Part shown: piece after piece, positions 2-42,091 of the stretch | How positions within the stretch are numbered: position 1 is the first letter of the stretch | Layout: the number at the start of each line of letters is the position of its first letter | Assembly: GCA_017548075.1 (NCBI GenBank) | Contig: JAFYNL010000001.1 | Coordinates: 24,997 to 88,996, forward strand | Length of the DNA stretch: 64,000 nucleotides | Reading direction: 5' to 3' | From: Bacteroidaceae bacterium | Lineage (GTDB): Bacteria; Bacteroidota; Bacteroidia; Bacteroidales; Bacteroidaceae | Position numbers and translations under genes: made by a program | Notes under the pieces: model-generated | Databases searched by the model: none | Told to the model about the DNA's origin: nothing | Seen by the model: the letters and a program-made list of their open reading frames with translations, nothing else

Positions 2-595
2 CACAGTATCGACGAGCAAGTTGGACGGTTGCTCGACTACTTGGAGGCTAACGATTTGATGGACAACACGATGGTAGTCTATACGAGCGACCAGGGTTTC
101 TATATGGGAGAGCACGGCTGGTTCGATAAACGTTTTATGTATGAGGAGTCGTTCCGCACTCCCCTACTCGTCTGTGCACCAGGCATGAAAGGCGGTCAGA
201 AGAGTGATGCTCTTGTTCAGAACATTGACTTTGCTCCAACTTTCCTCGATATTGCGGATGCCGAAAAGCCCCAGCAAATGGTTGGAACTTCGTTGCTACC
301 TATCATGTCGAAAGGCGGCAAGGCACCAAAGAATTGGCGTAAGTATCTGTATTACCATTATTATGATTGTCCTGCGGAACATAATGTGATGCGTCATGAT
401 GGCGTGAGCGATGGCAGATACAAGCTCATTCACTTCTACGGACCTAAGGGTTCTTACGACGAACTCTTTGATTTGAAGAAAGATCCAAACGAGCTTCAGA
501 ACGTCATAGCTGAGAAAAAGTATGCAAAACATTTGGCTCAACTTCAGAAGCAACTCGATGCTTTCCGCATAGAGCAAAAGGTCGATGAATGGTGA
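2..595 (+). CDS. Sulfatase, C-terminal part (5' end outside window)
   Basis: The reading frame is open from the first bases, so the catalytic N-terminus, including the formylglycine site, lies upstream. What remains is the C-terminal third of an alkaline-phosphatase-fold sulfatase. It has the TSDQGFYMGEHGWFDKR segment (metal-binding Asp, and His/Lys of the active site), then a typical tail with SDGRYKLIHFYG and ELFDLKKDPNELQNV, as in the DUF4976 region. Such enzymes are exported and remove sulfate esters from host or algal glycans. The substrate cannot be read from this part. The TGA stop overlaps the left end of an intergenic repeat. Sulfate released here could in principle feed the sulfate-activation genes at 20-28 kb, but that link is only inference. 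Confidence 0.9.
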   Translation, partial: HSIDEQVGRLLDYLEANDLMDNTMVVYTSDQGFYMGEHGWFDKRFMYEESFRTPLLVCAPGMKGGQKSDALVQNIDFAPTFLDIADAEKPQQMVGTSLLPIMSKGGKAPKNWRKYLYYHYYDCPAEHNVMRHDGVSDGRYKLIHFYGPKGSYDELFDLKKDPNELQNVIAEKKYAKHLAQLQKQLDAFRIEQKVDEW

Positions 596-697
596 CGCCA
601 GTTAAGTTGCTCAACGTAACGTGTTATGATTGCAAACGTAACACGTTAACTTTGCCAACTTAACACGTTATGTTTGCCATCGTAACTGCAGTCGTTT
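594..697. repeat. 22-bp-period intergenic repeat, copy A
   Basis: Three 22-bp units carry AACGTGTTA or its complement TAACACGTT. The flanks are degenerate inverted ends (CCAGTTA on the left, TAACTGCAGTCGTTT on the right). It lies between two converging genes, and its left end overlaps the sulfatase stop codon. Six further copies are annotated in this window. Confidence 0.85.
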
Positions 698-710
698 ACT
701 GTAAAGACAC

Positions 711-751
711 AAAAAAGGCAACGCATCCTTGTTGTAAGGTTGCATTGCCTT
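711..751 (-). terminator. Rho-independent terminator of spt
   Basis: On the minus strand, an imperfect stem (AAGGCAA at 715-721 pairing with TTGCCTT at 745-751, plus inner GCA/TGC and CCTT/AAGG pairs) is followed by a run of six T. It lies about 25 bases after the spt stop codon. Confidence 0.8.
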
Positions 752-775
752 AATAGTGATTCGATTATCGTTCGC

Positions 776-1963
776 TTAGAAAATCCCTAATTCCTTGAAG
801 ACTTTCTTAAGTTTAATGACTGATTCGTCGACCTGTTCGCGAGTGTGGTTTGCCATAAGTGCATAGCGAACGAGAGTGTCCTGCGGTGCACAAGCTGGCG
901 GAATAACTGGATTGATGAAGACGCCTTCATTAAATGCCTTAGCAACTGCCATGAAGGTCTTATCCGTATCGCGAACATAAAGAGGAATGATGGGACTTTC
1001 TGTGTCGCCAATCTCGAAGCCTTCTTCGCGGAAACGCTTAAGTGCGTAATTCGTTACACTCCAAAGTGCTTCCAGACGCTCTGGCTCGTTCTGAATGATA
1101 TGAAGTGCTTCGCGAGCCGCTGCAGTTGCAGCTGGAGTACAACTTGCACTGAAGATGTAGGTGCGAGCTGTGTGGCGAAGCCAGTTGATAATGCTGCTGT
1201 CTGCTGCGATGAAACCACCGATGGATGCCAAACTCTTTGAGAATGTGCCCATAATCAGGTCAACTTCATCGGTCAAGCCAAAGTGGTTGCAGACGCCCCT
1301 ACCCTGTTTGCCGAAGACGCCAATGCCGTGAGCTTCGTCTACCATAATGGCAACATTGTCGTACTTCTTCTTCAGTTCAACGATTTCAGGCAATTTGCAG
1401 AGGTCACCTTCCATGCTGAATACACCATCCACGACAATGAGTTTAACGCGATCAGGCTCGCACTTCTGGATCATCTTCTCCAGATCATCCATATCATTAT
1501 GCTTGTACTTGAGCTGCGTTGCAAAGCTGAGACGACGACCATCTACGATGCTCGCGTGGTCGCGGTCATCGCAGATAACATAGTCGTTACGGTCAACGAG
1601 TTGACTTATGACGCCGCTATTAACTGTGAAACCAGTTGCAAAGCAGAGCGCTTCATCTTTGCCAACAAACTCTGCAAGCTCTTTCTCGAGCTGAACATGA
1701 ATGTCGAGCGTGCCATTAAGGAAACGGCTGCCAGCGCAACCGCTACCATATTTCTGCATAGCTGCGCAACCTGCATCAATAACGCGCTGGTCACCAGTCA
1801 AGCCTGTATATGCATTTGAGCCAAACATCAACACTCGGCGACCTTCCATAATCACCTCAGTGCCTTGCTTGCCTTCTATCTCGCGAAAGTAAGGGTAAAT
1901 ACCCTGTGCCATAAACTCTTGAGGGAGAGTATATTTGGCACATCTGTCTTGTAATAATCCCAT
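776..1963 (-). CDS. spt: Serine palmitoyltransferase (alpha-oxoamine synthase family)
   Basis: A 395-residue PLP enzyme of the alpha-oxoamine synthase family, which condenses an acyl-CoA with an amino acid. Visible are the stacking His136 in DRDHAS, the DEAH motif at 209-212 and the PLP lysine K243 in GTFSKSLASIGGF. The N-terminus (MGLLQDRCAKY) and overall sequence look like the Bacteroides serine palmitoyltransferase, which makes 3-ketosphinganine, the first step of sphingolipid synthesis. The close relative 2-amino-3-ketobutyrate CoA ligase (Kbl) is the main alternative, and annotation pipelines often confuse the two. A lipid kinase starts 164 bases away on the other strand, which favours a lipid role. 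A -7 box lies at 2006-2013 and a terminator follows the gene. The protein is cytosolic or peripheral. Confidence 0.85.
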   Translation of the reverse strand: MGLLQDRCAKYTLPQEFMAQGIYPYFREIEGKQGTEVIMEGRRVLMFGSNAYTGLTGDQRVIDAGCAAMQKYGSGCAGSRFLNGTLDIHVQLEKELAEFVGKDEALCFATGFTVNSGVISQLVDRNDYVICDDRDHASIVDGRRLSFATQLKYKHNDMDDLEKMIQKCEPDRVKLIVVDGVFSMEGDLCKLPEIVELKKKYDNVAIMVDEAHGIGVFGKQGRGVCNHFGLTDEVDLIMGTFSKSLASIGGFIAADSSIINWLRHTARTYIFSASCTPAATAAAREALHIIQNEPERLEALWSVTNYALKRFREEGFEIGDTESPIIPLYVRDTDKTFMAVAKAFNEGVFINPVIPPACAPQDTLVRYALMANHTREQVDESVIKLKKVFKELGIF

Positions 1964-2005
1964 AAAATTCTTTTACCTCACCCTTAAAAGGGTTAAATTC
2001 GACTG

Positions 2006-2013
2006 CAAAGGTA
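2006..2013 (-). promoter_or_regulatory. -7 box for spt (TACCTTTG)
   Basis: The Bacteroidetes -7 consensus TAnnTTTG on the minus strand, 43 bases upstream of the spt start codon. Confidence 0.7.
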
Positions 2014-2108
2014 CTCCTTTTTCTTGAAATATTACCCATCTTATCGGAAAAAAAATGCATAGTGTGTCTATTTATATAAATAATGTACGAGAATTGAACA
2101 TTTTTCCT

Positions 2109-2116
2109 TACCTTTG
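2109..2116 (+). promoter_or_regulatory. -7 box for lipid kinase (TACCTTTG)
   Basis: TACCTTTG followed by CACC, ending 11 bases before the ATG at 2128. With the minus-strand box at 2006-2013 it forms a compact divergent promoter region. Confidence 0.75.
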
Positions 2117-2127
2117 CACCACGAAAT

Positions 2128-3183
2128 ATGGAGAAAAAGACCAAAATAGTATTCATCGTAAACCCTATATCGGGTACTTCGGACAAGCAACATATCATCG
2201 ACCTTATCCCGAAGTATTTGGATAGTCGCCTGTTTGAGTGGACCATCTGCAAGACCGAACACAAAGGTCATGCTGCAGAGTTCGTTGGAAAGGCCATTCA
2301 GGACGGAGCCGACATAGCTGTGGCTGTGGGCGGAGACGGTACTGTTAATGAGGTTGCGCGAAGTCTGATTCATACTGATACAGCACTTGGAATCATTCCT
2401 TGTGGCAGCGGAAACGGGCTGGCTCGTCACCTTTATATTCCGATGAATCCTGATGGCGCTCTCCAAGTTCTTGCGGATTGCCACATTGAGAGCCTCGATT
2501 ATGGCATCATCGACCAGCAGCCTTTCTTCTGCACTTGTGGCGTAGGTTTCGACGCATTCATTAGTGACCGCTTTGCCAAAAGCAATCGTCGAGGTCTTCT
2601 TACATATATCGAGAATACACTCAAAGAGGGTTTGAAGTACAAACCGGACACTTATGAGATAACGATTGATGGCGAGCGTCAAGTTTATAAAGCATTCCTC
2701 ATTGCATGCGCAAATGCCAATCAGTACGGAAACAACGTTTATATTGCGCCCTATGCAAGTATGAGTGATGGTTTGATGGATGTTACTTTGATTGAACCCT
2801 TTACCGTACTGGAGGCTCCTCAAATGGCTATTCAGCTCTTTAACAAGACGATAACGACCAACAGCCGCATTCATTCGTTCCGTTGTCAGCATTTGCATAT
2901 TAAGAGAAGTGCTCCTGGAGTGATTCATTTCGATGGCGATCCGAAGGATGCTGGCGAGGAACTTGATGTAAGATTGGTGCCGAAAGGAATCAAAATGGTT
3001 GTCAATACGAAGGAACAACCTTACCTTCCTCCCCTACTTCGAACTTTTGCGGACTTCTATCATGGAGTGAACGAGGAGATTTCTACCTTTAGTGCCGACC
3101 TGAAAGCAGACTTCAAAGAAGGTCAAAGACGCATCAGCACAATTAACAAAGAATTGTTGCGAAAATTAAGGAAGAAGCCTTAA
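2128..3183 (+). CDS. Diacylglycerol/sphingosine-kinase-like lipid kinase
   Basis: A 351-residue protein with the DAGK catalytic fold. The nucleotide loop GGDGT is at 68-72 (VGGDGTVNEVAR) and the second glycine motif GSGNGLAR at 93-100. The all-beta C-terminal half has the acidic IHFDGDP segment typical of YegS/DgkB-type kinases. The family phosphorylates diacylglycerol, sphingoid bases or similar lipids at the inner membrane. It is transcribed divergently from serine palmitoyltransferase, so a sphingolipid or ceramide substrate is a reasonable inference, but the sequence does not fix it. The 3' end overlaps the converging small gene by 18 bases. The last 50 residues are basic (RKLRKKP end) and could aid membrane contact. 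Confidence 0.9.
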   Translation: MEKKTKIVFIVNPISGTSDKQHIIDLIPKYLDSRLFEWTICKTEHKGHAAEFVGKAIQDGADIAVAVGGDGTVNEVARSLIHTDTALGIIPCGSGNGLARHLYIPMNPDGALQVLADCHIESLDYGIIDQQPFFCTCGVGFDAFISDRFAKSNRRGLLTYIENTLKEGLKYKPDTYEITIDGERQVYKAFLIACANANQYGNNVYIAPYASMSDGLMDVTLIEPFTVLEAPQMAIQLFNKTITTNSRIHSFRCQHLHIKRSAPGVIHFDGDPKDAGEELDVRLVPKGIKMVVNTKEQPYLPPLLRTFADFYHGVNEEISTFSADLKADFKEGQRRISTINKELLRKLRKKP

Positions 3184-3366
3184 TTCCTTCTCAAAACACT
3201 TTAAGATGGCATCCTTCTGCTCACTTGTGAGAGAAGGCTCTGCTTGTTCCAAAGCAAGACGAAGTGCCTCGATTGCCTTTGTCTTAGCTTGTTGTTGCCC
3301 CATCCTAACGCCACTTCTGTAAGGAGTGGATGGAAGTAAAGCTCTATTGAAGTTTCCGTCGCTCAT
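3166..3366 (-). CDS. Small conserved hypothetical protein (66 aa)
   Basis: A 66-residue soluble protein starting MSDGNFNRALLP, with no signal peptide or membrane segment. The middle is Lys/Gln-rich (RMGQQQAKTKAIEAL) and the C-terminus is predicted helical and acidic. I recognise the N-terminal pattern as one seen in small Bacteroidales proteins of unknown function. It starts 33 bases after the rarA stop on the same strand, so the two are probably co-transcribed. Its 3' end overlaps the lipid-kinase 3' end by 18 bases in the opposite direction. No function can be given. Confidence 0.75.
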   Translation of the reverse strand: MSDGNFNRALLPSTPYRSGVRMGQQQAKTKAIEALRLALEQAEPSLTSEQKDAILKCFEKELRLLP

Positions 3367-3399
3367 CTTTGACTCTTTAAAATGGTTCTCCTAAAAGCA

Positions 3400-4680
3400 T
3401 TACTTCTTCTCATATTTGTCCTTTCCCCAGCACTTTTCCATTTGTGCGCGAAGCCTATCCTCAGCCACATTGTTCTGAGGTTGCCAGAATTGTTGCCCCT
3501 TTAATTCATCGGGGAGGAACTGCTGAAGAACGAAATTGCCTTCATAGTCGTGAGCATACTTATATCCTTTGCTGTAACCCAGATCTTTCATCAACGATGT
3601 GGGAGCATTTCTAAGGTGAAGAGGCACAGGTTGATTGCCGGTTTCCTGAACATTTTGAAGTGCGTCGTTGATAGCCATATATGCAGAATTGCTCTTCGGA
3701 CTTGTGGCAAGATAGATGGTTGCTTCAGCTAAAGGGATGCGACCTTCTGGCCAACCTATCTTCATGACCGCGTCGAAAGCGGCATTGGCCAACAGAAGGG
3801 CATTCGGATTGGCGAGTCCAATATCCTCACTCGCGCTAATGACAAGCCTTCTGGCTATGAAAGCAGGGTCTTCCCCACCCTCAATCATTCGGGCCAGCCA
3901 ATAGATTGCGGCATCCGGATCGCTTCCTCGAATACTCTTGATGAAGGCCGAAATGATGTCGTAATGCATCTCGCCATCCTTATCGTAAGCAAGCGGATTC
4001 TGTTGCAAGCAATTCGCCACAATCTCATCCTTAATCTCTATATCGCCATCTTTGGGAGCCGACTCATATACAAGCTCAAGAATGTTAAGAAGTTTACGAG
4101 CGTCACCTGCGCTATATCGAAGCAAAGCACCCGTTTCTGTGAAATGGAATACGCGCTTACTCAACTCGATGTCATGCTCAACAGTATAGTGAGCAAGTTG
4201 CATCAAATCGTCTTCTTCGAGCGGCTTTAATGTATAAACCTGGCAACGGGAAAGAAGCGGACGAATCACTTCGAAAGAAGGATTCTCCGTTGTTGCGCCG
4301 ATAAGTGTGACGACTCCCTGCTCTACAGCCCCAAGCAAAGAGTCTTGTTGCGACTTAGAGAAACGGTGAATCTCGTCGATGAAAAGAATGGGATTGTTCT
4401 GGTTGAAGAATCGCGAAGAACGGGCCTTTTCGATGATATCTCGCACATCCTTAACTCCGCTTGTAACTGCGCTCAGAGTAAAGAAAGGCACTTCCAACTT
4501 ACGGGCTATAATGCTTGCAAGCGTGGTCTTTCCAACTCCAGGAGGTCCCCAGAGTATGAAGCTGTTAACGTGACCGCTCTCCAACATTTTACGGAGTACC
4601 GCACCTGGTCCTACCAAGTGTTTTTGTCCGATATAATTGTCGAGCGTCAACGGACGCATTCTTTCTGCTAAAGGTTGCAT
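3400..4680 (-). CDS. rarA: Replication-associated recombination protein A (AAA+ ATPase)
   Basis: A 426-residue AAA+ clamp-loader-like ATPase of the RarA/MgsA/WRNIP1 family, which acts at stalled replication forks. The Walker A GPPGVGKT is at 45-52, and the Walker B is LFIDEIHR with sensor motif GATTENPSFEV. Next come the lid domain and the C-terminal tetramerisation region (SASEDIGLANP, YLATSPKSN). The start was set at the ATG giving MQPLAERMRP, not an in-frame codon 33 bases upstream, because a -7 box at 4689-4696 would leave the upstream codon outside the transcript. The leader would be only a few bases long. It is probably co-transcribed with the small gene downstream. Confidence 0.95.
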   Translation of the reverse strand: MQPLAERMRPLTLDNYIGQKHLVGPGAVLRKMLESGHVNSFILWGPPGVGKTTLASIIARKLEVPFFTLSAVTSGVKDVRDIIEKARSSRFFNQNNPILFIDEIHRFSKSQQDSLLGAVEQGVVTLIGATTENPSFEVIRPLLSRCQVYTLKPLEEDDLMQLAHYTVEHDIELSKRVFHFTETGALLRYSAGDARKLLNILELVYESAPKDGDIEIKDEIVANCLQQNPLAYDKDGEMHYDIISAFIKSIRGSDPDAAIYWLARMIEGGEDPAFIARRLVISASEDIGLANPNALLLANAAFDAVMKIGWPEGRIPLAEATIYLATSPKSNSAYMAINDALQNVQETGNQPVPLHLRNAPTSLMKDLGYSKGYKYAHDYEGNFVLQQFLPDELKGQQFWQPQNNVAEDRLRAQMEKCWGKDKYEKK

Positions 4681-4688
4681 AACGAGTG

Positions 4689-4696
4689 CAAAGATA
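4689..4696 (-). promoter_or_regulatory. -7 box for rarA (TATCTTTG)
   Basis: The box ends 8 bases before the rarA ATG at 4680. A start site 5-8 bases downstream would give a nearly leaderless transcript, and this position decides the start codon. Confidence 0.7.
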
Positions 4697-4754
4697 CGAA
4701 GAAAAAAGGACAAAAAGAAATTAAGGATGAAGAAAATTAAGGTAGTTTGAAAAT

Positions 4755-4857
4755 AGCCTAGTTAAGTCGGCCAACTTAACACGTTAACTTTGCAAACTTA
4801 ACACGTTAAAATCGTCAACAACCCACGTTAACTTTGGCAACGACACTAGAGTTGTTT
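4755..4857. repeat. 22-bp-period intergenic repeat, copy B
   Basis: Three 22-bp units with AACACGTTA or a near variant. The left end is AGCCTAGTTA and the right end is ACGACACTAGAGTTGTTTG. The flanking TAGTTTGAAAATAG and TTTGAAAACTAT sequences resemble each other. It fills the gap between the rarA promoter and the 3' end of the glycosyltransferase gene. Confidence 0.85.
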
Positions 4858-4862
4858 GAAAA

Positions 4863-5681
4863 CTATCCTTGAACCTTTTGATTTTGTGACACGAAATAGC
4901 CCAATTTGTAGAATGCAAAGAGGGTTTGGTTAGGGTGCTTCCCCAGTAAATTTAAGCGGAGAAGAGGTTTGCAAATTTTGAAAACAAAACGCACAAAACC
5001 CTGTAGACAGAAACGCTTCAACCTTTGTGCCAGAGCCGAAACTCGGACATTTTCCTGTTGTTCAAGCGGCATAAATGCAAGAGAACGAAGCGCAACCTCT
5101 GTCTTTTGAAGATATTCGTCAGCATCTTCAAGCCCCAGATGAGTCAGTTTATTATCGATATGTAGGATGTTTATGCCTCTTTTCTTCAACTCCAAACCAA
5201 AGAGAGTGTCTTCGTGACCATAATCTTTCAGTCGCTCATCGAAGAGGATAGATAGAAACAGATTGCGTTCAATCAGGAAGTTAAAAGTGGTAAAACCTAT
5301 GTAAGGATGTTTTTGTCGATGTTCTAAGGTCAGGCGTTTCTCTGCCTTTACTTCATAATCATAGCGAAGACGGGCTTTGGCGCGAGGACATTCAGGCAAG
5401 TTTCCTGTTCCTCCACAAACAACTTGAGCTTGTTTTGAAGCAGCCAGATAGTCGGCAATGAAGTGCGAACTTCGCACCTGAGCATCAGCATCTATGAATA
5501 ACAGCCACTCTCCTTTTGCCTCTCGAGCAAGAGCATTTCGCCTTGCAGCCCTTCCAAGATTATGAGGAGGGCTATCGTCGCCAACAATTATCTCTGCATC
5601 TTCTGGCAATTGTTGTTGCAGTTGTTGCACAAGTTGGCTGCAATCGTAGTTGTATGTAGGAATGAGGATGGAGAGTTTCAC
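4863..5681 (-). CDS. Family 2 glycosyltransferase
   Basis: A 272-residue GT-A fold transferase. It opens with KLSILIPTYNYD (nucleotide-sugar site), then VGDDSPPHNLGRAARRN, and the metal-binding FIDADAQV (DxD-like) motif. It also has ARLRYDYEVKAEKR and the acceptor-side KDYGHEDTLFGLELKKRG. It should transfer a sugar at the inner face of the membrane onto a lipid or surface glycan. Donor and acceptor are unknown. The GTG at 5681 was chosen as start because it puts the conserved KLSILIP at the N-terminus. A TTG 30 bases upstream is the alternative. It follows tamL by 35 bases on the same strand and is probably translated from that transcript. Confidence 0.88.
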   Translation of the reverse strand: MKLSILIPTYNYDCSQLVQQLQQQLPEDAEIIVGDDSPPHNLGRAARRNALAREAKGEWLLFIDADAQVRSSHFIADYLAASKQAQVVCGGTGNLPECPRAKARLRYDYEVKAEKRLTLEHRQKHPYIGFTTFNFLIERNLFLSILFDERLKDYGHEDTLFGLELKKRGINILHIDNKLTHLGLEDADEYLQKTEVALRSLAFMPLEQQENVRVSALAQRLKRFCLQGFVRFVFKICKPLLRLNLLGKHPNQTLFAFYKLGYFVSQNQKVQG

Positions 5682-5716
5682 AATTTCAAAATTTATAAGT
5701 TCACATTTCAAAACAG

Positions 5717-7981: not shown

Positions 7982-7985
7982 GCTA

Positions 7986-8047: not shown

Positions 8048-8806
8048 ATGATAAGCAAGGCTCGCATCAAATGGATTAAGTCGCTCGAAATGCGCAAGTT
8101 TCGTCTGCAACACCAAGCTTTTGTGGCAGAAGGACCAAAACTTGTAGGCGAATTGCTTCCCTACTCTACCCCGCTCTATATCGCTGCCACAAAGGATTGG
8201 CTGACTCAAAACACTAGCCTGATTGGTAAGGTTAAAGAGGTGGATGAAGTGAGTCAGGCAGAACTGGAAAGAGCAAGCCTTCTTCGAACTCCACAAAGTG
8301 TCTTGGCTGTAATGCCTATTCCACAAAGGAAACTCGACATTTCATTTTTGCAAGATCAACTCGTTATTGCTCTCGATGGTGTGCAAGACCCTGGGAATCT
8401 GGGAACTATCCTAAGGATTGCCGATTGGTTTGGCATTCATAAAGTCCTTTGTTCAGAGGGAACGGCAGATGTTTTCAATCCTAAATGCGTTCAATCTTGT
8501 ATGGGTGCTTTGGCAAGAGTCGAGGTCTTCTACTGCAATCTGACTGAGGTTCTGAATGAAGTTGAAATGCCAGTTTATGGCACTTTCCTCGATGGGACTG
8601 ATATTTATAAGGAAGAACTCTCACAAAACGGCATTATTGTGATGGGAAACGAAGGAAACGGAATTAGCGAAGAAGTGTCGAAACTCATCAATCGACGCCT
8701 TTATGTTCCCAACTTCCCACAAGGCTCACAAACTACTGAAAGCCTGAATGTTGCAGTCGCAACCGGCATTGTTTGTGCTGAGTTCCGCAGAAGGATGCAA
8801 AACTAA
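8048..8806 (+). CDS. TrmH/SpoU-family RNA 2'-O-methyltransferase
   Basis: A 252-residue SPOUT methyltransferase. The N-terminal substrate-binding part (KSLEMRKFRLQHQAFVAEG) resembles the L7Ae/L30e-like domain of TrmH-type rRNA methylases. The catalytic knot follows: DGVQDPGNLGTILRIADWFG at 110-129, the SAM-binding IVMGNEGNGIS, and SLNVAVATGI. The family methylates ribose 2'-OH groups in tRNA or rRNA; the exact site is not readable from the sequence. The ATG at 8048 was preferred over a longer frame because it fits the family N-terminus and follows its own -7 box. It is divergent from tamL. Confidence 0.9.
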   Translation: MISKARIKWIKSLEMRKFRLQHQAFVAEGPKLVGELLPYSTPLYIAATKDWLTQNTSLIGKVKEVDEVSQAELERASLLRTPQSVLAVMPIPQRKLDISFLQDQLVIALDGVQDPGNLGTILRIADWFGIHKVLCSEGTADVFNPKCVQSCMGALARVEVFYCNLTEVLNEVEMPVYGTFLDGTDIYKEELSQNGIIVMGNEGNGISEEVSKLINRRLYVPNFPQGSQTTESLNVAVATGIVCAEFRRRMQN

Positions 8807-8834
8807 ACTAGCCTAGTTAGGAAACTAGGCTAGT
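8807..8834. terminator. Perfect 12-bp hairpin right after trmH
   Basis: ACTAGCCTAGTT, a 4-base loop and AACTAGGCTAGT, starting at the base after the trmH stop codon. There is no T run on either strand. Its right arm is shared with the left end of repeat copy C. It may end or stabilise the message, or be part of the repeat. Confidence 0.55.
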
Positions 8835-8944
8835 GTCGTTGGCAAAGTTAACACAGTTAAAATAAAAAGTTAACGTGTTACGTTTGCAATCTTAACGTGT
8901 TAAGTTGGCGAAGTTAACGTGTTATGTTTTCAGATGACCTTAGG
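8822..8944. repeat. 22-bp-period intergenic repeat, copy C
   Basis: Units at 22-bp spacing carry AACACAGTT, then three AACGTGTTA. The left part (CTAGTGTCGTTGGC) is the complement of the right end of copy B. An inner CAGTTAAAATAAAAAGTTAA matches the left end of copy D. It lies between converging genes. Confidence 0.85.
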
Positions 8945-8974
8945 GATATAAAAAGATGAAGAATTTTTCATCTC

Positions 8975-9805
8975 TTATTCTTCCTCGTCTTCGCTTTCGT
9001 TAACATCTTCTATGGAAAGCCCTTCTTCTTCGAGGTCTTTCACGTCAGCTTCAGGAGTAAGGCTGCTGAAGTAGGTGTCGTCGTTCTCGAGTCCGTCTTC
9101 TTCATTCTCTTCTCCCATATCTTGTCCATCCGAAAGAGGAATCAGGTTACCATCTTCATCGTATTCCCTTTCTGGCAAATCCATGTGAATCTTCTCGACA
9201 GGATCTTTCTTCTTAGCAAAGATGGCTTCAATCCAAGTTCCTTTGGGAATCTCGAGGACATCGAAACCTTGAGCTTTCTTCTTCTCTACCGTGCCTCCAG
9301 GAGCGTGGATGCGACTTGCTGGAAGTTGAGTGGTACTTATCTCGAAGCCTGTTTCAATGATGTCGCGAATGGCAAGAGCAATGGAGTCCCAACCGCCACC
9401 AAAGTTGCGATCAATGAGTTCCAAAAGCATAGCAGTTGAGATGTGTCTGATGTTCTCGTAGCTCAGGTCAGTTATGCGCTCGATAGCCTTGCGGCGAATG
9501 GCGACGCAGCCTTTCGTTGGATCGCAATGTGTAACCTTTGCCCAGCCTCCGTTCTCGTATTTCTTGGCTTCGCGTTCGTCTTCAGGATTATAGTGTACAA
9601 CCTCGAAAGCAAGTCTTATGGTATTGAGAAGCTTCTGCTCACTAATGCTGAAATCCTCTCCCTCGCGGTCTTTCTCCCATGCATCAGCAATGGCGAACTC
9701 GTCCAAATCCCAAATGTTGTTGGCATTCAGATCGAGTATGCTTTCCAATGTTTTGACGTTCTTCTTTGTCGCTTTCTTCTTTTCGACTTTCGTTTCTTCC
9801 TTCAT
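8975..9805 (-). CDS. Conserved hypothetical protein with basic N-terminus and acidic tail (276 aa)
   Basis: I do not recognise a named family. It has a Lys-rich start (KEETKVEKKKATKKN), a globular middle with DLDEFAIADAWEKDREGEDFS, two Cys (CDPTKGC) and FGGGWDSIALAIRDIIETGF, then a basic stretch (GTVEKKKAQG, FAKKKDP). The last 70 residues are strongly acidic (EENEEDGLENDD, ending NESEDEEE). There is no signal peptide or membrane segment. The charge pattern resembles nucleic-acid-associated proteins with acidic tails, but this is only an impression. It is divergent from uvrB across 103 bases, and both genes have a -7 box there. Confidence 0.8.
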   Translation of the reverse strand: MKEETKVEKKKATKKNVKTLESILDLNANNIWDLDEFAIADAWEKDREGEDFSISEQKLLNTIRLAFEVVHYNPEDEREAKKYENGGWAKVTHCDPTKGCVAIRRKAIERITDLSYENIRHISTAMLLELIDRNFGGGWDSIALAIRDIIETGFEISTTQLPASRIHAPGGTVEKKKAQGFDVLEIPKGTWIEAIFAKKKDPVEKIHMDLPEREYDEDGNLIPLSDGQDMGEENEEDGLENDDTYFSSLTPEADVKDLEEEGLSIEDVNESEDEEE

Positions 9806-15946: not shown

Positions 15947-16002
15947 GTTTTTTTTCGTGCGACAACAAAGAAAAGAGGAGAAAAAAACACGCAAAAACAA
16001 AA

Positions 16003-16040
16003 ACTTTAAACTTTAAACTTTATTCTTTAAACTTTATTTT
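16003..16040. repeat. 7-bp tandem repeat (AAACTTT units)
   Basis: About five units of AAACTTT with minor changes, directly upstream of the -7 box of the DUF3127 gene. It is one of several 7-bp-period tracts in this window. Confidence 0.7.
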
Positions 16041-16041
16041 G

Positions 16042-16049
16042 TACCTTTG
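16042..16049 (+). promoter_or_regulatory. -7 box for DUF3127 gene (TACCTTTG)
   Basis: TACCTTTG followed by CAGG, ending 27 bases before the ATG at 16077. Confidence 0.75.
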
Positions 16050-16076
16050 CAGGCAAAATTTAAAAAAATACACATT

Positions 16077-16472
16077 ATGGAATTAACAGGAAAGATTATT
16101 GCCGAGTTCAATGAGCGAGGCGGAGTAAGCAACAGAACTGGCAACGAATGGAAGGCTAAATCATACGTTTTGGAGGTACCTGGAGACTATCCCAGAAAGT
16201 TGGTTTTCGATGTTTTCGGAGCTGACCGTCTGCAGGCTTTCAACCTTCAGATTGGCGAAACAGTAACGGTTAGCTTTGATATCGATGCTCATGAATACAA
16301 CGGACGTTGGTTCAACGATGTTCGCGCTTTCCGAATCGACAGAGGTCAGGCCGCTCCAACTGCTTCTGCAGAAGCTGCTCCAACTCCAGACGCCGCTCCA
16401 GTTGCCCCAATGGCTGAGCCCGCTCCCATACCTTTCGAGGCTCCCGCTCCAACAGACGAACTCCCCTTCTAA
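16077..16472 (+). CDS. DUF3127 family OB-fold protein with SSB-like tip
   Basis: A 131-residue protein. Residues 1-85 look like the small OB-fold DUF3127 family (MELTGKIIAEF, YVLEVPGDYPRKLVFDVFG, VSFDIDAHEYNGRWFNDVRA). A Pro/Ala-rich linker of about 40 residues follows, and the chain ends DELPF. The layout copies single-stranded DNA-binding protein, whose flexible linker ends in an acidic D-x-x-P-F tip that docks DNA repair enzymes. A DNA-binding or partner-recruiting role is inferred, not shown. The start was set at the ATG after the -7 box rather than an upstream in-frame codon. tRNA-Arg follows 16 bases later. Confidence 0.85.
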   Translation: MELTGKIIAEFNERGGVSNRTGNEWKAKSYVLEVPGDYPRKLVFDVFGADRLQAFNLQIGETVTVSFDIDAHEYNGRWFNDVRAFRIDRGQAAPTASAEAAPTPDAAPVAPMAEPAPIPFEAPAPTDELPF

Positions 16473-16683: not shown

Positions 16684-16792
16684 AAACGACCCTCAGTTAA
16701 AATCAAAAGTTAACGTGTTACGTTGGCAAACTTAACGAGTTAAGATTGCAATCGTAACGTGTTATGTTTGGCAACGACACTGGGGTTGTTTT
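16684..16792. repeat. 22-bp-period intergenic repeat, copy D
   Basis: The left end AACGACCCTCAGTTAAAATC and right end GGCAACGACACTGGGG plus TTGTTT flank three 22-bp units with AACGTGTTA or AACGAGTTA. It is the best-preserved copy together with F and G, and lies between the tRNA-Arg terminator and the tex promoter. Confidence 0.88.
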
Positions 16793-24874: not shown

Positions 24875-25085
24875 AAAGTCAGAAAGTCATAAAATCATAA
24901 TTCTACAGGAATGGCTTTTCAGTTAGTTCTGCCGCGGTAAAGAAGAGATAATAATTATTATCTATTATTTATATTATAATATTATTAATAATAAAACTCT
25001 ATTAATAATCTTATACTCGTGTAGTAATTCAGTCACTTTCGCTTCCTGTAGATATATGATTATATGATTAAGTGATTATCTCCCC
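24875..25085. other. AT-rich spacer with near-palindromic A/T tract and 8-bp repeats
   Basis: The 500-base gap between the GH27 and cysD starts holds three things besides promoters. There are two 8-bp-period tracts (GAAAGTCA units near 24882, GATTATAT-like units near 25055-25080). There is an almost pure A/T stretch at about 24945-25013 with several short palindromes such as TAATAATTATTA. Copy E of the 22-bp repeat follows at 25124-25230. I see no gene here. Confidence 0.6.
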
Positions 25086-25123: not shown

Positions 25124-25230
25124 AAACATTACACGTGATGTTTGCAAACATCGCACGCGAAAATGGCCAACGTCACACGTTAAAATCGTCGACGTAACAC
25201 GCTATGTTTGCAAACAACACTAATTGTTGA
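25124..25230. repeat. 22-bp-period intergenic repeat, copy E (degenerate)
   Basis: Units at 22-bp spacing carry ACACGTGATG, GCACGCGAAA, ACACGTTAAA and ACACGCTATG, with GTTTGCAAAC palindromes. The right end is CACTAATTGTTG. It is the most diverged copy and lies in the divergent region upstream of cysD. Confidence 0.75.
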
Positions 25231-33120: not shown

Positions 33121-33130
33121 AAGAATCGAA

Positions 33131-34398: not shown

Positions 34399-34401
34399 AC
34401 T

Positions 34402-35140: not shown

Positions 35141-35157
35141 AGTGTCGTTTTTAGATT

Positions 35158-35260
35158 TAACGTAGGTAAATTCAAAAGTTAACGTGTTACGTTGGTCATT
35201 TTAACGTGTTATGTTTGCAAACTTAACGTGTTACGTTTGGCATCGTAACTGGGGTTGTTT
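35158..35260. repeat. 22-bp-period intergenic repeat, copy F
   Basis: Three clean 22-bp units, each beginning AACGTGTTA, with left end GGTAAATTCAAAAGTTAACG and right end CATCGTAACTGGGG plus TTGTTT. The right end runs into the recR stop codon at 35259-35261. Confidence 0.88.
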
Positions 35261-35873
35261 ATTTCCCAAACGGGATTCGCCCTGCAAGGGCTCTGCCGAG
35301 GGTCACTTCGTCGGTATATTGTAGTTCATCATTTTGCGCAATTCCTCGAGCTATGACAGTCACTTTGACGCCTGTCTCTTCGAGTTTGCGGTAGATGAAA
35401 TAGTTGGTTGTATCGCCTTCCATCGTAGGACTTAGAGCAAGAATCACTTCTTCCACCCCACCCTTTTTCACGCGTTCCACTAGGCTTTCAATCTGCAAAT
35501 CGCTCGGACCAATGCCATCCATCGGACTAATGACGCCGCCAAGAACATGATACAAACCTCTGTACTGCATCGTGTTCTCGATAGCCATTACATCCTGAAC
35601 ATTCTCAACCACACAAACAAGACTGCTGTCTCGAGTCGGATTGCTACAAATCTCACACTTTTCTTCGTCGCAGATATTGTAGCAAACCTTGCAATAATGA
35701 ACTCCCTTTCGCATTTCCACAAGGCTCTCAGCCAAAGCCTCCACCCTCTCTTCATCCTGACGAAGCAAATGAAGAGCAAGCCTCAAAGCCGTCTTACTAC
35801 CGATTCCAGGCAGACGATTGATTTCGTTTACGGCTTTCTCGAGAAGCTCTGAAGAGTAGTGTGACTGCAACAT
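35259..35873 (-). CDS. recR: Recombination mediator protein RecR
   Basis: A 204-residue RecR. It has an N-terminal helix-hairpin-helix ([20 protein letters not shown]), the C4 zinc finger ([16 protein letters not shown]), a Toprim domain ([16 protein letters not shown]) and a C-terminal Walker-B-like segment. With RecO and RecF it loads RecA on gapped DNA; recF lies 5 kb away at 40.5 kb. It starts one base after the hisB stop and so seems to be the last gene of the his transcript. Confidence 0.96.
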
Positions 35874-35874
35874 C

Positions 35875-36942: not shown

Positions 36943-36948
36943 AGGCTT

Positions 36949-37983
36949 TTATTTGTAGAAGCGCAACGCTCCAAGCAGTTCATTATTCTCTTGTCTTGTG
37001 CCAATCGTAATGCGAAGGCAGTTCTCGCAAAGTTGGACACGACTGCGATTGCGCACCACAATACCCTTCTCTATCAAGTAGCGATAGATACTGTTGGCAT
37101 CGGTCACTCGGACAAGAACAAAGTTTGCATCAGTTGGGTAGACTTTCAGGACGATTGGCAACTCATAGAGTGCAGGCAAAACATTCTCTTTCTCCCGACG
37201 AATTTGAGCCATCCAACTGTCGATTGTGCCGAGGTCACTCAGCAAAGCACAAGCTTTCTCTTGAGTAAGCAGATTAACATTGTAAGGATATTTGACCTTA
37301 TTGAAGAGTGCGATAATCTCTTCGCTTGCAAACGCCATACCCAATCGGATAGCTGCCGAAGCCCAAGCCTTACTGAAAGTATTCAGGACAATCAGGTTAG
37401 GATACTTGTCAAGCACACTACGGAAAGGCTGATTCGTCGAGAAGTCAGAATAGGCTTCATCCACAACAACAATACCTTCGAAATTCGTCAACACTTCGTG
37501 AATGACTTCACGAGGGATATCGTTGCCAGTAGGATTGTTGGGTGAACATATCCAGATGACCTTTGTCCTTGCATCAGTTGCCTCAAGAAGAGCTTTAGGG
37601 TCGAGTTGCCAATCGTCTGATAATGGAACACTTCTGTATTCAACATTATTGATATCCGCACACACTTTATACATGCCATAAGTCGGAGCCATTGCAACCA
37701 CATTATCCTTTTCCGGGTTGCAGAAGATCCGATAGACAAGGTCGATGGCTTCGTCACTTCCGTTACCAAGGAATATCTGCGAGGGACGCACTCCCTTCAA
37801 GGGTGCAAGACGCGCCTTCAACTTCTCTTGCAATGGGTCGGGATAGCGGTTTATCGGGTCATTGTAAGGATTCTCGTTGGCATCAAGAAAGACGTGTGCA
37901 TCCATTCCCTTGAATTCATCTCGGGCACAACTGTATGGTTCAAGCGCCCAGATATTAGGGCGAACAAGTGATTCTAAGTTCAT
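36949..37983 (-). CDS. hisC: Histidinol-phosphate aminotransferase
   Basis: A 344-residue fold-type I PLP aminotransferase (step 7 of histidine synthesis). It has [53 protein letters not shown] and the PLP lysine in [17 protein letters not shown]. It overlaps the hisD stop by 4 bases (ATGA). Confidence 0.96.
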
Positions 37984-39260
37984 AGGCTCTTCATTCTTAG
38001 CGTCATTGCATTCTTGTGAGCATCAAGTCCCTCGGCTTCGGCCATCAGTTCTACGGCTCTACCTATTGCTTTAATGCCTTCAGGTTGAATATGCTGGAAG
38101 GTTATCTTGCGGCAGAAACTGTCGAGATTGACTCCGCTATAAGCCACAGCATAGCCGTTTGTCGGCAAAGTATGATTCGTTCCACTAGCATAATCGCCGG
38201 CGCTTTCTGGCGTTAACGAGCCGAGAAAGACACTTCCGGCATTCATTACCTTCTTGGCAAGTTCCATGTAATTGGCAGTCTCGATGATGAGATGTTCTGG
38301 AGCATAACGATTCGTGACTTCCATCATCTCGTCGTCATTATGGACAACGATTGCTTTGCTATGTTCAAGTGCCTGAGCCGCAATATCTTTTCTGGGCAGT
38401 AGAGTTAATTGACGCACCACTTCTGCTTCTACCTTTCGAGCAGTTTCTTCACTCTTGCAAACAAGCAGGACTTGGCTGTCTATGCCGTGTTCTGCTTGAC
38501 TGAGAAGGTCGGCAGCAACGAAAGAAATGTTGCTCGTTTCGTCTGCAAGCACTTCAACTTCACTCGGACCAGCAGGCATATCTATGGCAACATCATGCAA
38601 GCTGACTTGTTGCTTAGCACACATAACGAACTGATTGCCAGGGCCGAATATCTTATAAACCTTTGGCACACTCTCAGTTCCGTAGGCCATCGCCCCAATT
38701 GCCTGAACGCCACCAATCTTGTAGATGCGGCTCACTCCCGCAACCTTTGCGGCAACAAGGATGGCGGGATTAACATTTCCATCTTTTGAAGGCGGCGTAC
38801 AAAGCACAATCTCCTTGCATCCAGCTATTTTTGCAGGTGTTGCGAGCATAAGAACTGTACTGAAAAGAGGAGCGGTACCGCCAGGAATGTAGAGACCTAC
38901 ACGCTCGATGGCAACTGACTTCTGCCAACATTCCACACCTTCTGTCACTTGAACATGCTCTCCTTCAAAGCGTTGCTTAGCATGGAAGCGTTCAATGTTC
39001 TGATGAGCAAGACGGATAGCCTGTTTGAGCTCCTCGCTTACAAGGCTTTCGGCAGCAAGCATCTCAGCTTCCGAAACTGCCAAATCATCTAGGCGAACCT
39101 TATCAAAACGCTCCTCATACTCGCGAACTGCCGCATCGCCTCTTTGCTTAACATTCTGAAGGACTGCAGAGACGGTTGCATTCAGTTCTGAAGCATCGCG
39201 AACAGGACGCTTCAACAAAGCATCAAGTTCAGCAGATGTTGGATATTTATAGATGTTCAT
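37980..39260 (-). CDS. hisD: Histidinol dehydrogenase
   Basis: A 426-residue zinc enzyme performing the last two oxidations to histidine. Recognised by [67 protein letters not shown], the metal-site [12 protein letters not shown], and APEHLII with [10 protein letters not shown]-like [10 protein letters not shown]. The ATG giving [12 protein letters not shown], 14 bases after the hisG stop, was taken as start; an in-frame TTG lies 18 bases upstream. Confidence 0.96.
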
Positions 39261-39274
39261 GTTCAAAGAATCAC

Positions 39275-40126
39275 TCAAGGAATCATTTTCTCAATCGGCA
39301 CAACAAGGATACCTTCCGCGCCAAGACTCTTCAGTTCACGGATAATCTCCCAGAAACGTTTCTCGTCGATAACTGTGTGAACGCTGCTCCAACCCTCAGT
39401 TGCGAGAGGCATAACAGTAGGACTCTTGACACCAGGCAGAACTGCGACAATCTCTTTCAGACGGTCTGTAGGCACATTCATCAGGACATATTTCTTGTCT
39501 TCCGCAGCCTTGACTGCTTCTATTCGGAACAGGAGTTCATCCAACACAGCCCGCTTTTCCTCGTCGAGATTCTTGTTGGCAATAAGGAGAGCCTCACTTT
39601 GCATTACCGTTTCCACCTCAACAAGATTGTTGCTGACGAGTGTGGAACCGCTGCTGACAATATCGAAGATCGCATCTGCAAGGCCGATACCCGGACTTAT
39701 CTCAACGCTTCCAGTAATGACATGAATGTCTGCAGCAATTCGATTCTTCTGCATGAAGCGGCGAAGGATATTGGGATAACTCGTGGCAATCTTCTTGCCT
39801 TCGAACCACTTCAAGCCGTAATAATCCTCACCTTTGGGAACTGCTAAAGAGAGACGACATTTGCTAAAACCAAGAGCGCGAACCACTTCCGCATCTTCTG
39901 CCCTTTCTTCAAACTCGTTTTGGCCAACTATTCCGAGGTCTGCCACTCCACTTGCCACGCTTTGAGGAATGTCATCATCGCGAAGATAGAGGATTTCGAC
40001 AGGGAAATTGCTGCTCTGCACAAGAAGTGTGCGTCTGCTACTGCCCACCTTTATGCCTGCTTCAGCAAGCAAAGATATTGTATCTTCAAAGAGTCGTCCT
40101 TTCGACTGAACTGCTATTCTCAACAT
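39275..40126 (-). CDS. hisG: ATP phosphoribosyltransferase, long form
   Basis: A 283-residue HisG, the first and feedback-controlled step of histidine synthesis. The catalytic part has MLRIAVQSKGRLFEDTI, RDDDIPQSVASGVADLGIVG, KIATSYPNILRRF, and the PRPP loop EISPGIGLADAIFDIVSSGS. The extra C-terminal regulatory ACT-like domain (about 210-283, KYVLMNVPTDRLKEIVAVLP) marks the long, self-sufficient form that binds histidine and needs no HisZ. It is the first gene of hisGDCB-recR, with a -7 box about 32 bases upstream. Confidence 0.97.
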   Translation of the reverse strand: MLRIAVQSKGRLFEDTISLLAEAGIKVGSSRRTLLVQSSNFPVEILYLRDDDIPQSVASGVADLGIVGQNEFEERAEDAEVVRALGFSKCRLSLAVPKGEDYYGLKWFEGKKIATSYPNILRRFMQKNRIAADIHVITGSVEISPGIGLADAIFDIVSSGSTLVSNNLVEVETVMQSEALLIANKNLDEEKRAVLDELLFRIEAVKAAEDKKYVLMNVPTDRLKEIVAVLPGVKSPTVMPLATEGWSSVHTVIDEKRFWEIIRELKSLGAEGILVVPIEKMIP

Positions 40127-40157
40127 TTCTTTTACCTTATTATATTATTTCGCGCTG

Positions 40158-40165
40158 CAAAGGTA
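40158..40165 (-). promoter_or_regulatory. -7 box for the his operon (TACCTTTG)
   Basis: TACCTTTG on the minus strand followed by CAGC, 31 bases before the hisG ATG. I see no attenuator-like leader peptide rich in His codons in the short leader. Confidence 0.75.
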
Positions 40166-40206
40166 CGAAGAAATAATGAAATAATAAAGAAAGAAGGTAT
40201 GAAATA

Positions 40207-40497
40207 TCAAAAGAAACAAACATCGCTTATCACATACGAGCCAACATGTTCGTTAAGCTTTTGGGCAATGCGTTTGTGCTCCATCATAAGGTTTTGACGA
40301 AGCGATGGGTTGTTGAGTTGCACTTGCAACTTGCCTTCTCGCACAAAAACCTGCTTTGTGTAACGACCAATCACTTCGCCCATCACTTCCTGCCAAGCTT
40401 GAGTGATGCGATATTCAAGAAGCGGAGTCTCCAAACCTTCTTCGCGAAGGAAAGCCAGCAAAGCATCATGCATGGAATGCGTATTGGTCTTAATCAT
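40207..40497 (-). CDS. DUF721 (DciA-like) protein
   Basis: A 96-residue protein of the DUF721 family. It has LLEYRITQAWQEVMGEVIGRYTKQVFVREGKLQVQL and LRQNLMMEHKRIAQKLNE as family core (shown in part). In other bacteria DciA, a DUF721 protein, loads the replicative helicase, and actinobacterial members sit beside recF and gyrase genes. The ATG overlaps the recF stop by 4 bases, so it is co-translated with recF. A DNA replication role is inferred from family and neighbour. Confidence 0.85.
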   Translation of the reverse strand: MIKTNTHSMHDALLAFLREEGLETPLLEYRITQAWQEVMGEVIGRYTKQVFVREGKLQVQLNNPSLRQNLMMEHKRIAQKLNEHVGSYVISDVCFF

Positions 40498-41591
40498 GAT
40501 TTCACCTCTCCTTTCTCCACAAAGAAAATCTTGCTGTCGCTCTCCATCGAAGCAAGGATGGCATCAAGATGGTCGCGATTTGTGTCTGTGATAAAGATTT
40601 GTCCGAAGCGCTCTCCACTAACTAACTTCACAATCTGCTCAACCCTTTCTGCGTCGAGCTTGTCGAAAATGTCGTCCAACAAAAGCAGAGGCGTTGTCCG
40701 AGAGCCAGTTCTGCTGAGGAAATCAAATTGAGCGAGCTTCAAAGCAATGAGGAAAGTCTTGCTCTGACCTTGCGAGCCCTCTCTGCGAACAGGATAGCCG
40801 CCTTGCAACATCTCGAGGTCGTCCTTGTGAATTCCATGCAGAGAATAACCAACGGCTCTGTCCTTGAAACGACCAGTTGTGAGTTGCTCCAGCAGAGGAC
40901 CTCGCTGTAAATGAGAGACATAGCGCAGTTCAACCTGCTCTTTGTTCTGCGAAATCTGGTTGTAAAACTGCTGGAAGATGGGGATAAGTTCAGAGATATA
41001 TTCGTTTCGTTTCTTGAAGATATACTCACCTTCACGAGCCATCTGTTCTTCCCAAATCAGGTAGATTTCCTGGTCGAACTCTTCTTCCTGCTTGAGTAGG
41101 GCATTTCTCTGTTGCAGAGCCTTGTTGTAACGCATCAAAGACTCTGTGTAAGCTGAGTCGTACTGACAAATCACCATATCCACAAAACGACGCCTTTCCT
41201 CACTCCCACCCGAAACAAGCATCTGGTCTGCAGGCGAAACCATCACAAGAGGAATGAGTCCTATGTGTTCTGAAAGCTTGCGATAAGCCTTCTTTCCTCT
41301 GCGAACAACCTTCTTCTGCCCCACTTTCAAGCCCAAATGAATGTCTTCCTTTGTCCCATCTTCGTTCTCATAAAGGCCTTGAAGAGACATGAATTCCTGT
41401 CCATGACGAACGCTCAGCATATCAATACTGCTGCTGTAACTTCGACAGAAACTCAGGAAATGAATGGCATCGAGCACATTTGTCTTGCCCTGACCATTGC
41501 CTCCGATGAAGCAATTCAAGTTTGGCGAAAAGCGCAACTGTGCCTCCGCAATGTTCTTATAATTAAATATGGTAAGTTCCTTAAGCTTCAT
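40494..41591 (-). CDS. recF: DNA replication and repair protein RecF
   Basis: A 365-residue SMC-like ATPase that helps load RecA at gaps. It has the N-terminal MKLKELTIFNYKNIAEAQL, Walker A FIGGNGQGKTNVLDAIHFL, the ABC signature region GSQGQSKTFLIALKLAQ, and Walker B PLLLLDDIFDKLD. A start 135 bases further upstream is open, but the ATG at 41591 fits the family N-terminus and lies just after a -7 box. The implied leader is only a few bases. DUF721 is coupled downstream. Confidence 0.95.
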   Translation of the reverse strand: MKLKELTIFNYKNIAEAQLRFSPNLNCFIGGNGQGKTNVLDAIHFLSFCRSYSSSIDMLSVRHGQEFMSLQGLYENEDGTKEDIHLGLKVGQKKVVRRGKKAYRKLSEHIGLIPLVMVSPADQMLVSGGSEERRRFVDMVICQYDSAYTESLMRYNKALQQRNALLKQEEEFDQEIYLIWEEQMAREGEYIFKKRNEYISELIPIFQQFYNQISQNKEQVELRYVSHLQRGPLLEQLTTGRFKDRAVGYSLHGIHKDDLEMLQGGYPVRREGSQGQSKTFLIALKLAQFDFLSRTGSRTTPLLLLDDIFDKLDAERVEQIVKLVSGERFGQIFITDTNRDHLDAILASMESDSKIFFVEKGEVKS

Positions 41592-41599
41592 ATCTTTTG

Positions 41600-41607
41600 C
41601 AAAGATA
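41600..41607 (-). promoter_or_regulatory. -7 box for recF (TATCTTTG)
   Basis: The box ends 8 bases before the recF ATG and fixes the start choice; the message would be nearly leaderless. Confidence 0.7.
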
Positions 41608-41650
41608 CAAAAAAAATAGAGATTGAAGATGGGGATTAAAGATTTTTTCA

Positions 41651-41658
41651 TAAATTTG
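41651..41658 (+). promoter_or_regulatory. -7 box for SemiSWEET (TAAATTTG)
   Basis: A TAnnTTTG match 21 bases before the ATG at 41680. It forms a divergent pair with the recF promoter. Confidence 0.65.
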
Positions 41659-41679
41659 CAATGAATTAAGCATAAAAAG

Positions 41680-41970
41680 ATGGAACAAACTACATTTACC
41701 GACATTTGCGGCATCGTGGCAAGCATAGGATTGATACTGGGTTATCTGCCACAAGCGATACAGACCATTCGCACTCGAAACACTGATGGAATCGCACTTC
41801 CCACCTTCTTGATGACGGCCATAGGAGGTATTGCCTTCATGCTTCAAGGCCTCCTTCACAAGCCCGACATCATCTGGTCGCTCGTGCTCACCAACTTTAT
41901 CACAACAGTCTGCAGCATCATCGTCTTCGGCATCAAAATCTACAACGACTACTTCAAAAACAGAGGATAA
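41680..41970 (+). CDS. SemiSWEET sugar transporter
   Basis: A 96-residue membrane protein with three hydrophobic helices and one PQ-loop motif (LILGYLPQAIQTIRTRNTDG). This is the size and layout of bacterial SemiSWEETs, which dimerise to form a passive sugar pore. Asn in VLTNFITTVCS of the third helix may line the pore, as in studied family members. Substrate sugar unknown. It is followed directly by repeat copy G. Confidence 0.9.
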   Translation: MEQTTFTDICGIVASIGLILGYLPQAIQTIRTRNTDGIALPTFLMTAIGGIAFMLQGLLHKPDIIWSLVLTNFITTVCSIIVFGIKIYNDYFKNRG

Positions 41971-41983
41971 AAGGAGGGAGGCG

Positions 41984-42091
41984 AAACAACCCCAGTTACG
42001 TTGCCAAAGTTAACGTGTTAAGTTGGCCATTTTAACGTGTTAAGTTCGCAAACTTAACGTGTTACGTTTTGATTTTAACTGAGGGTCGTTT
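41984..42091. repeat. 22-bp-period intergenic repeat, copy G (inverted relative to D and F)
   Basis: The left end AACAACCCCAGTTACGTTGC and right end GATTTTAACTGAGGGTCGTT are the complements of the right and left ends of copy D. Three 22-bp units with AACGTGTTA lie between. This pairing shows that the ends belong to the element. Confidence 0.9.

Follow-up and report, generated by a model that had tools for sequence, protein, structure and literature searches.

The 64,000-bp window analysed here (positions 24,997 to 88,996 of contig JAFYNL010000001.1, from a Bacteroidaceae bacterium) carries seven intergenic arrays of a 22-bp unit, and arrays of the same kind recur along the chromosome at even distances. 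We tentatively read them as phase-locked binding arrays that may provide evenly spaced chromosomal docking sites for a putative DNA-binding protein, a reading that we hold at slightly less than even confidence. The two-turn phase, the dyads, the uneven base constraint and the even spacing together suggest sites for an oligomeric protein at the scale of the chromosome. Of the options raised in the original prediction, a protein lying along one face of the helix or a nucleoid or segregation site fits the phase, the uneven constraint and the even spacing best. The genome holding the window (G000; other G numbers denote relatives, C contigs and L sequence stretches) is a draft metagenome-assembled genome (MAG) of 2,657,075 bases in 66 contigs, 88% complete, of which we examined 456.5 kb, the window plus 20 stretches, or about 17%. 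The MAGs behind 32 stretches with two exact units are named Bacteroidales, Bacteroidaceae or Prevotellaceae; several bear the label yak rumen or omasum, and the remainder belong to the RUG series, which is of rumen origin. From the MAGs that share exact units, the window genome was taken as that of a rumen Bacteroidales.

The unit is abundant and its step exact. A genome-wide search with a pattern allowing up to 2 mismatches returned 614 matches against 1 for the reversed pattern, with some units counted on both strands because the unit is near-palindromic; the original prediction had set a floor of about ten copies, which this number far surpasses. In the sample, a 22-bp weight matrix with a cut-off of 9 bits gave 353 hits above that value and 18 in the reversed sequence, both strands being counted. 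Like-strand hits no more than 130 bp apart are spaced by multiples of 22 without exception, as had been claimed for the window copies: 22 (229 cases), 44 (124), 66 (41), 88 (8) and 110 (5), and nothing else. Chaining on a single strand yields 189 units, 179 of which fall into 54 arrays of 2 to 6 core units; the remaining 10 are singletons, some due to chance. Given this range in core units, the predicted copy length of about 105 bp is typical rather than fixed. Extrapolation from the sample gives about 300 arrays for the genome, and the true number is probably several hundred.

Distances between neighbouring arrays are far more regular than the layout of intergenic DNA would produce. Along five contig stretches of G000, 49 array-to-array distances have a mean of 8035 bp and a coefficient of variation (CV) of 0.40 (minimum 3529, maximum 18,070). 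Seven null models, each dropping the same number of arrays into the real intergenic gaps in 2000 draws, gave mean CVs of 0.76-0.86 and never a value below 0.50; the observed CV was reached in 0 of 2000 draws of each. None of the 49 distances is shorter than 3.5 kb, where the nulls expect 11-16. The test omits the 10 single-unit arrays, some of them chance; when the two that score at least 25 are added, the CV is 0.39 over 51 distances. On ten contigs outside the spacing test (C17, C18, C20, C21, C22, C25, C26, C27, C29 and C34), no pair lies closer than about 4.2 kb among the exact matches listed. With a sequence-free detector, individual contigs of G000 gave p values of 0.017 (C2), 0.0002 (C15) and 0.012 (C13). 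The same detection in relative G075, where contig C1 (210,638 bp) was covered whole, found 30 lag-22 arrays of several unrelated families at a mean distance of 6.9 kb, with 0-3 arrays at each other lag from 16 to 28. A permutation test that leaves out one of these 30 arrays, located in a predicted gene, gave a CV of 0.47 against a null of 0.83 (0 of 5000). Because arrays of unrelated families are evenly spaced in G075 as well, the spacing rule runs across sequence families. In the distant relative G077 (contig C4), 11 arrays have a CV of 0.50 against 0.83 (p 0.04), a weak replication. Low-complexity repeats were filtered out of every lag scan.

The anatomy of the unit is consistent with protein recognition. 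It reads AAAC-NTAAC-RY-GTTAN-GTTT-GC, a near-perfect 20-bp dyad followed by a GC linker; its 22 bp correspond to two helical turns, and the 20-bp dyad plus GC therefore places dyads every 11 bp. Over the 179 units the central dinucleotide is AC in 76, GT in 60 and self-complementary in 8, so that the centre is asymmetric in 171 of 179, and it pairs in 4% of units against 36% expected. Elsewhere in the unit there is little surplus pairing; the central dinucleotide alone stands out, by avoiding self-complementarity. When units are oriented by GT (n=136) the half-words are unlike, mostly AAA(C/G)TTAACG on the left and AAC(G/T/A)TAACA on the right. Forty-five middle units, picked by their position between two good units and not by their own score, are unevenly conserved: some positions hold C at 100%, G at 98% or T at 96%, and others stand at 51-58%. 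The spread of top-base frequency is 0.165 against 0.061 expected under uniform drift, nearly three-fold. Both features of a cooperative protein-binding array, a fixed helical phase and uneven base constraint, are thus present.

Unit identity in G000 is 0.69 within arrays (0.71 between adjacent units) and 0.68 between arrays, the last value pooling both unit orientations. Because the within-array and between-array values are so close, the arrays are not recent tandem duplications, and they lack the higher within-array identity of an ordinary minisatellite. Outer units are often of a different type, with GACTGCAG, GACCCC and CTAG words. Many G000 units, such as TTACGTTTGC, contain TAnnTTTG, the Bacteroidetes -7 promoter consensus; the distance to a -33 TTTG does not fit a promoter, and the G132-type unit described below is without TAnnTTTG.

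Across relatives the period is kept and the sequence replaced. A pattern holding only the AAC/GTT bases at 22-bp phase, with at most 1 mismatch, has at least 10 matches in 26 of 120 same-genus genomes besides G000, and up to 276; the letters between the fixed bases are widely different. The reversed pattern, meant as a control, is itself rich in some relatives (361 matches in G008, 579 in G077 and 358 in G079), where it marks 22-bp CAA..TTG arrays. In 31 genus members, lag scanning independent of sequence covered 596,497 bp, a single stretch of at most 20 kb from each genome, and found 49 tandem arrays, of which 19 have period 22, 4 have 21 and 3 have 23; 18 of the 31 genomes have at least one array of period 20-24. 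In other genera (22 stretches from 21 genomes, 440,000 bp) only 10 arrays were found, two of period 22 and two of 23. Particular units belong to particular lineages. The G132-type unit, GATTTACTAGTGT..., has 217, 135 and 374 matches in G132, G112 and G094, and 0-7 in ten other genomes; G000 has 1. The TATAGATACATGT unit is matched 144 times in G075, a count in which units may be doubled since the sequence is a near-palindrome, and in none of nine other genomes. Unit replacement has thus taken place lineage by lineage, at many loci and in partly fixed positions. In some relatives the arrays look locally homogeneous.

Several relatives show variants of the period or of the unit. G096 (L112, L142) has two arrays of period 21, two-fold symmetric and TTTACGACGTAAATTGTACAA-like. 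G016 and G001 (L161, L164) have period-23 arrays in stretches that also hold period-22 arrays. G036 (L158, 4352-4538) has a near-perfect 22-bp array of CTACTGCTTCAAAGAAAAGCTG, with an inverted copy at its end that would give a long hairpin.

Arrays of unrelated sequence and period 21-23 that recur in the genus and rarely in other families might also be a functionless mutational by-product, arising when tandem duplication and template switching favour a step of two turns. We judge this very improbable, as it is at odds with a unit vocabulary shared genome-wide, the diversity within arrays, the uneven constraint, the asymmetric centre and the even spacing.

The seven arrays of the window, all read and aligned and all present where the original prediction had placed them, are listed here without strand.

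Array A, 594..697: core units 612-677 plus outer units; it overlaps the stop codon of the open reading frame 29-595.
Array B, 4755..4857: core units 4770-4835.
Array C, 8822..8944: core units 8866-8931; in a convergent gap.
Array D, 16684..16792: core units 16706-16771; a tRNA-Arg on one side and a + strand gene on the other.
Array E, 25124..25230: core units 25124-25211; in a divergent gap.
Array F, 35158..35260: core units 35173-35260; starts at the stop codon (35259) of the gene called recR.
Array G, 41984..42091: core units 41984-42071; by eye, 3' of the stop codon of a small gene.

Contact of arrays A and F with stop codons had been predicted and is borne out. The name recR is that given from the sequence in the original prediction. 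Array A has a counterpart at the same position in G132 and G094, and array B in G005; by eye, the gap of array D holds degenerate 22-bp units in G132 and G094. For array E, the left anchor was not found among 9 relatives, and the right gene has a short array within 420 bp upstream in one of the nine, G112 (by eye). Five relatives were compared by eye at array G: in G112 an array overlaps the stop codon of the same gene, in G128 an array lies further downstream, and G005, G035 and G026 have no array within 650 bp. Arrays E and G are mostly non-syntenic in relatives and are therefore little informative. Apart from the arrays, the window has an AT-rich 7-bp repeat (TTTAAAC) at 15981-16079, ahead of a promoter-like TACCTTTG; three stretches in the 456.5-kb sample, and many in relatives, resemble it.

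The gap at recR illustrates replacement of the unit at a single locus. We compared 20 genomes including G000, taken as the best matches first from 137 matching among 139 searched and thus not a random set. A lag-22 array is found in 10 of the 20, G000 among them. Nine of these ten have gap lengths of 332, 354, 376 or 442, equal modulo 22; the tenth has 353. The unit is TTAACGTGTTA in G000 and, with changes, in G128, G005 and G034; it is TTTACTAGTGTGACG in G132, G112 and G094, TCTCACGTGTGAG in G202 and CTCGTGTGATG in G026, and G035 has a weaker array. Among the ten without a full array, G019 has a partial lag-22 signal of other sequence. Short AT-rich 7-8-bp repeats (TTCGTTA, GATTAAG, ATTGAAC) are visible by eye at the corresponding position in several array-free relatives, for example in the recR gaps of L066, L072, L074 and L076.

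Closely related genomes show how arrays change. The pairs G128/G005 and G132/G094 (92-93% identity) differ by 22 indels of at least 9 bp. Within arrays, unit number changes in 22-bp steps, three of them direct and one as 18+4; most of the other indels fall outside arrays or in low-complexity sequence. The outer parts of array A are nearly identical in G132 and G094, whereas the middle units have diverged in sequence and their number differs by one (227 vs 205 bp). At the few loci compared, turnover seems to run from the inside out, outer units being more alike than inner ones. One contig of G075 carries a near-uniform cassette of three units at seven places, each time bordered by variable units.

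At the locus of array C, G132 and G094 have no array and the flanking genes share 7 bp; match coordinates leave a gap of 5-9 bp in G112, G128, G005 and G075 and of 240 bp in G035. Room for an array is thus missing in 6 of 7 mapped relatives, and array C is probably an acquisition of this lineage, which makes the locus a place to study how arrays arise. A clean target duplication is not visible in the window gap that holds it (8793-8975). Given this probable gain and the dispersal of new units to many loci, some copying process exists, which may run through a transposase, gene conversion or another path.

Copying of this kind could reflect waves of non-autonomous mobile or minisatellite elements with no host function, similar to miniature inverted-repeat transposable elements (MITEs) such as BrickBuilt: 22-bp-modular cassettes would be spread by a transposase or by recombination, preferring older arrays, and target immunity or the re-use of old sites would explain the even spacing. 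We consider such waves possible, if rather doubtful. The clade-specific units at many loci, the nested look of the G075 cassette amid variable, older units, and the probable gain of array C all speak for them. The ends give a divided picture. GAC-type inverted end words occur on 32 of 108 array sides, on both sides of 8 of the 54 arrays, on one side of 16 and on neither of 30; the distinct left and right ends that had been described as part of the unit therefore hold for a minority of arrays and not as a general rule. No flanking direct repeat of 2-10 bp was found in any of 9 arrays whose two ends could be defined by a simple pattern. With inconstant ends and no target duplication seen, the mobile element originally put forward as an option is unsupported in its simple, fixed-end form. 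Unit diversity within arrays equal to that between arrays, and even spacing across unrelated families, are likewise difficult to reconcile with mobile waves. Y1 (REP/RAYT) transposase, the sole transposase family tested, was rejected as the disperser, with no PF01797 match in the 88% complete G000. Among 18 genomes, G000 included, with at least 70 array-pattern hits of either arm type, 14 had no match; G026 had one, G093 two weak ones, G031 two and G101 three. The exact unit had no match in viral contigs, and plasmid and phage collections searched with copy D gave no homologue at E 0.01.

Porphyromonas belongs to the order Bacteroidales, and it is from Porphyromonas gingivalis that the nearest published element comes. 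BrickBuilt is a minisatellite-bearing MITE with a tandem 23-nt repeat without spacers; it is always intergenic, occupies 19 loci, changes repeat number between strains by whole units and has predicted stem-loops, according to the parts of the paper covered here (PMC4596501). The same parts describe a leader and tail that can reach about 300 nt, IS5-type terminal repeats, some target duplications and up to 22.8 repeats, and mention that strain W83 also has tandem repeats of 22 and 41 nt (PMC4596501). That this element is called a MITE adds to the case for mobile waves. Like the G000 arrays, it is an intergenic tandem repeat of about two turns that gains or loses whole units. Unlike them, it has defined terminal inverted repeats, target duplications and longer arrays, and it occupies 19 loci where G000 has an extrapolated 300 or so; a leader and tail with IS5-type ends were not seen in G000. 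Even spacing and replacement of units between species are not reported in the parts of the BrickBuilt paper covered (PMC4596501).

Comparisons with other known systems are also incomplete matches. REP/BIME elements with RAYT (Y1) transposases form hundreds of intergenic palindromic copies, in arrays and with a preference for 3' ends. Unlike them, the G000 arrays have an exact 22-bp phase, even spacing and rapid sequence replacement, in a genome where Y1 was not found. Plasmid iterons and the ParR and TubR centromere arrays are short tandem sites about two helical turns apart that seat an oligomeric protein. Each of these is a single plasmid locus; the 22-bp arrays are found at hundreds of sites on the chromosome and are not alike from one species to the next. 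Non-coding satellite families in Leptospira interrogans and Methanocella conradii consist of tandem repeats that have moved to many places (PMC6749651); as far as the parts covered describe them, those repeats are long, in contrast to 22-bp units with a conserved period and changing sequence.

Arrays lie between genes, as had been claimed for the window copies: 0 of 54 array midpoints fall inside genes predicted by a simple gene caller of our own, in a sample that is about 90% coding. Tandem gaps hold 26 arrays, convergent gaps 14 and divergent gaps 10, and four arrays at stretch ends have no gap class. Placement is mostly at gene 3' ends, with a median distance from the array core of 34 bp to a 3' end and 179 bp to a gene start. 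These positions raise the possibility that arrays are bidirectional roadblock or hairpin terminators, or insulators, between transcription units. In addition to the 3' placement, the 14 arrays in convergent gaps compare with 21 such gaps of at least 100 bp in the sample, and predicted folding in G000 is stronger for arrays (median z -2.2) than for the rest of the intergenic DNA (-0.5). Among 24 hand-picked arrays of other genomes, however, z ranges from -13 to +1.3, and hairpin potential is weak (-1.4 to +1.3) in arrays of G132, G112 (two), G128 and one of G075. The ten arrays in divergent gaps are also unexpected of terminators. Terminator-like hairpins are not depleted at 3' ends with arrays (10 of 51) relative to those without (7 of 52), and even spacing is not required of terminators, while the gap-based nulls reject chance spacing. 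We therefore regard a terminator or insulator function as unlikely. An RNA hairpin or terminator as an invariant feature of the arrays is rejected, since some families fold strongly and others not at all. An Rfam scan of the window at gathering thresholds found two tRNAs only, neither inside any copy. Array polarity shows no preference relative to transcription (12 same, 13 opposite). Relative to local GC skew, the GT-centred strand is the same in 17 and opposite in 31 of 48 arrays, which is at most suggestive of a link between array polarity and replication direction.

A number of observations weigh against docking sites for a DNA-binding protein. The protein, its binding and any phenotype are all putative. 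The spacing result covers 17% of a draft genome, and the supporting case of G075 is not fully independent of G000, because some array positions were inherited by both; G075:C1 also has two distances below 3.5 kb (9.3 expected). Distribution within the genus is patchy: 13 of 31 members lack a lag 20-24 array in the stretch of up to 20 kb scanned, G016 has 1-2 arrays in 120 kb, so that array abundance is not genus-wide, and the recR gap lacks a full array in 10 of the 20 genomes compared. Dispersed lineage-specific units, some of them near-identical as in the G075 cassette, resemble mobile elements, and the probable gain of array C points the same way. Copying from a shared pool could account for part of the uneven constraint among positions. 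Finally, G132 and G094 differ by a 65-bp indel at an array edge, which is no multiple of 22.

We know of no bacterial intergenic repeat for which even spacing along the chromosome has been demonstrated, and of none with a lasting period and lasting positions whose sequence is replaced between related species. A literature search, with the subscription literature mostly outside its reach, recognised no paper on evenly spaced 22-bp arrays.

If the arrays are docking or boundary sites, an oligomerising DNA-binding protein would bind each of them cooperatively, and the set as a whole, being evenly spaced, might serve as loop anchors, topological barriers or segregation points. Unit sequence may drift because protein and sites co-evolve, and new unit variants may spread between arrays by conversion-like or cassette copying that preserves the 22-bp phase. 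A bolder version, which we think decidedly improbable, is a polycentric chromosome: several hundred arrays, mini-centromere-like or acting as loop anchors about every 7-10 kb, would seat a filament-forming protein. Their step would be fixed, and they would be renewed from inside, with a sequence that changes between close species through co-evolution of site and protein, like that of eukaryotic centromere satellites. If the arrays do seat a protein, they would constitute a natural experiment on chromosome organisation and on the co-evolution of sites with their binder, with more than 100 genomes of the genus for comparison.

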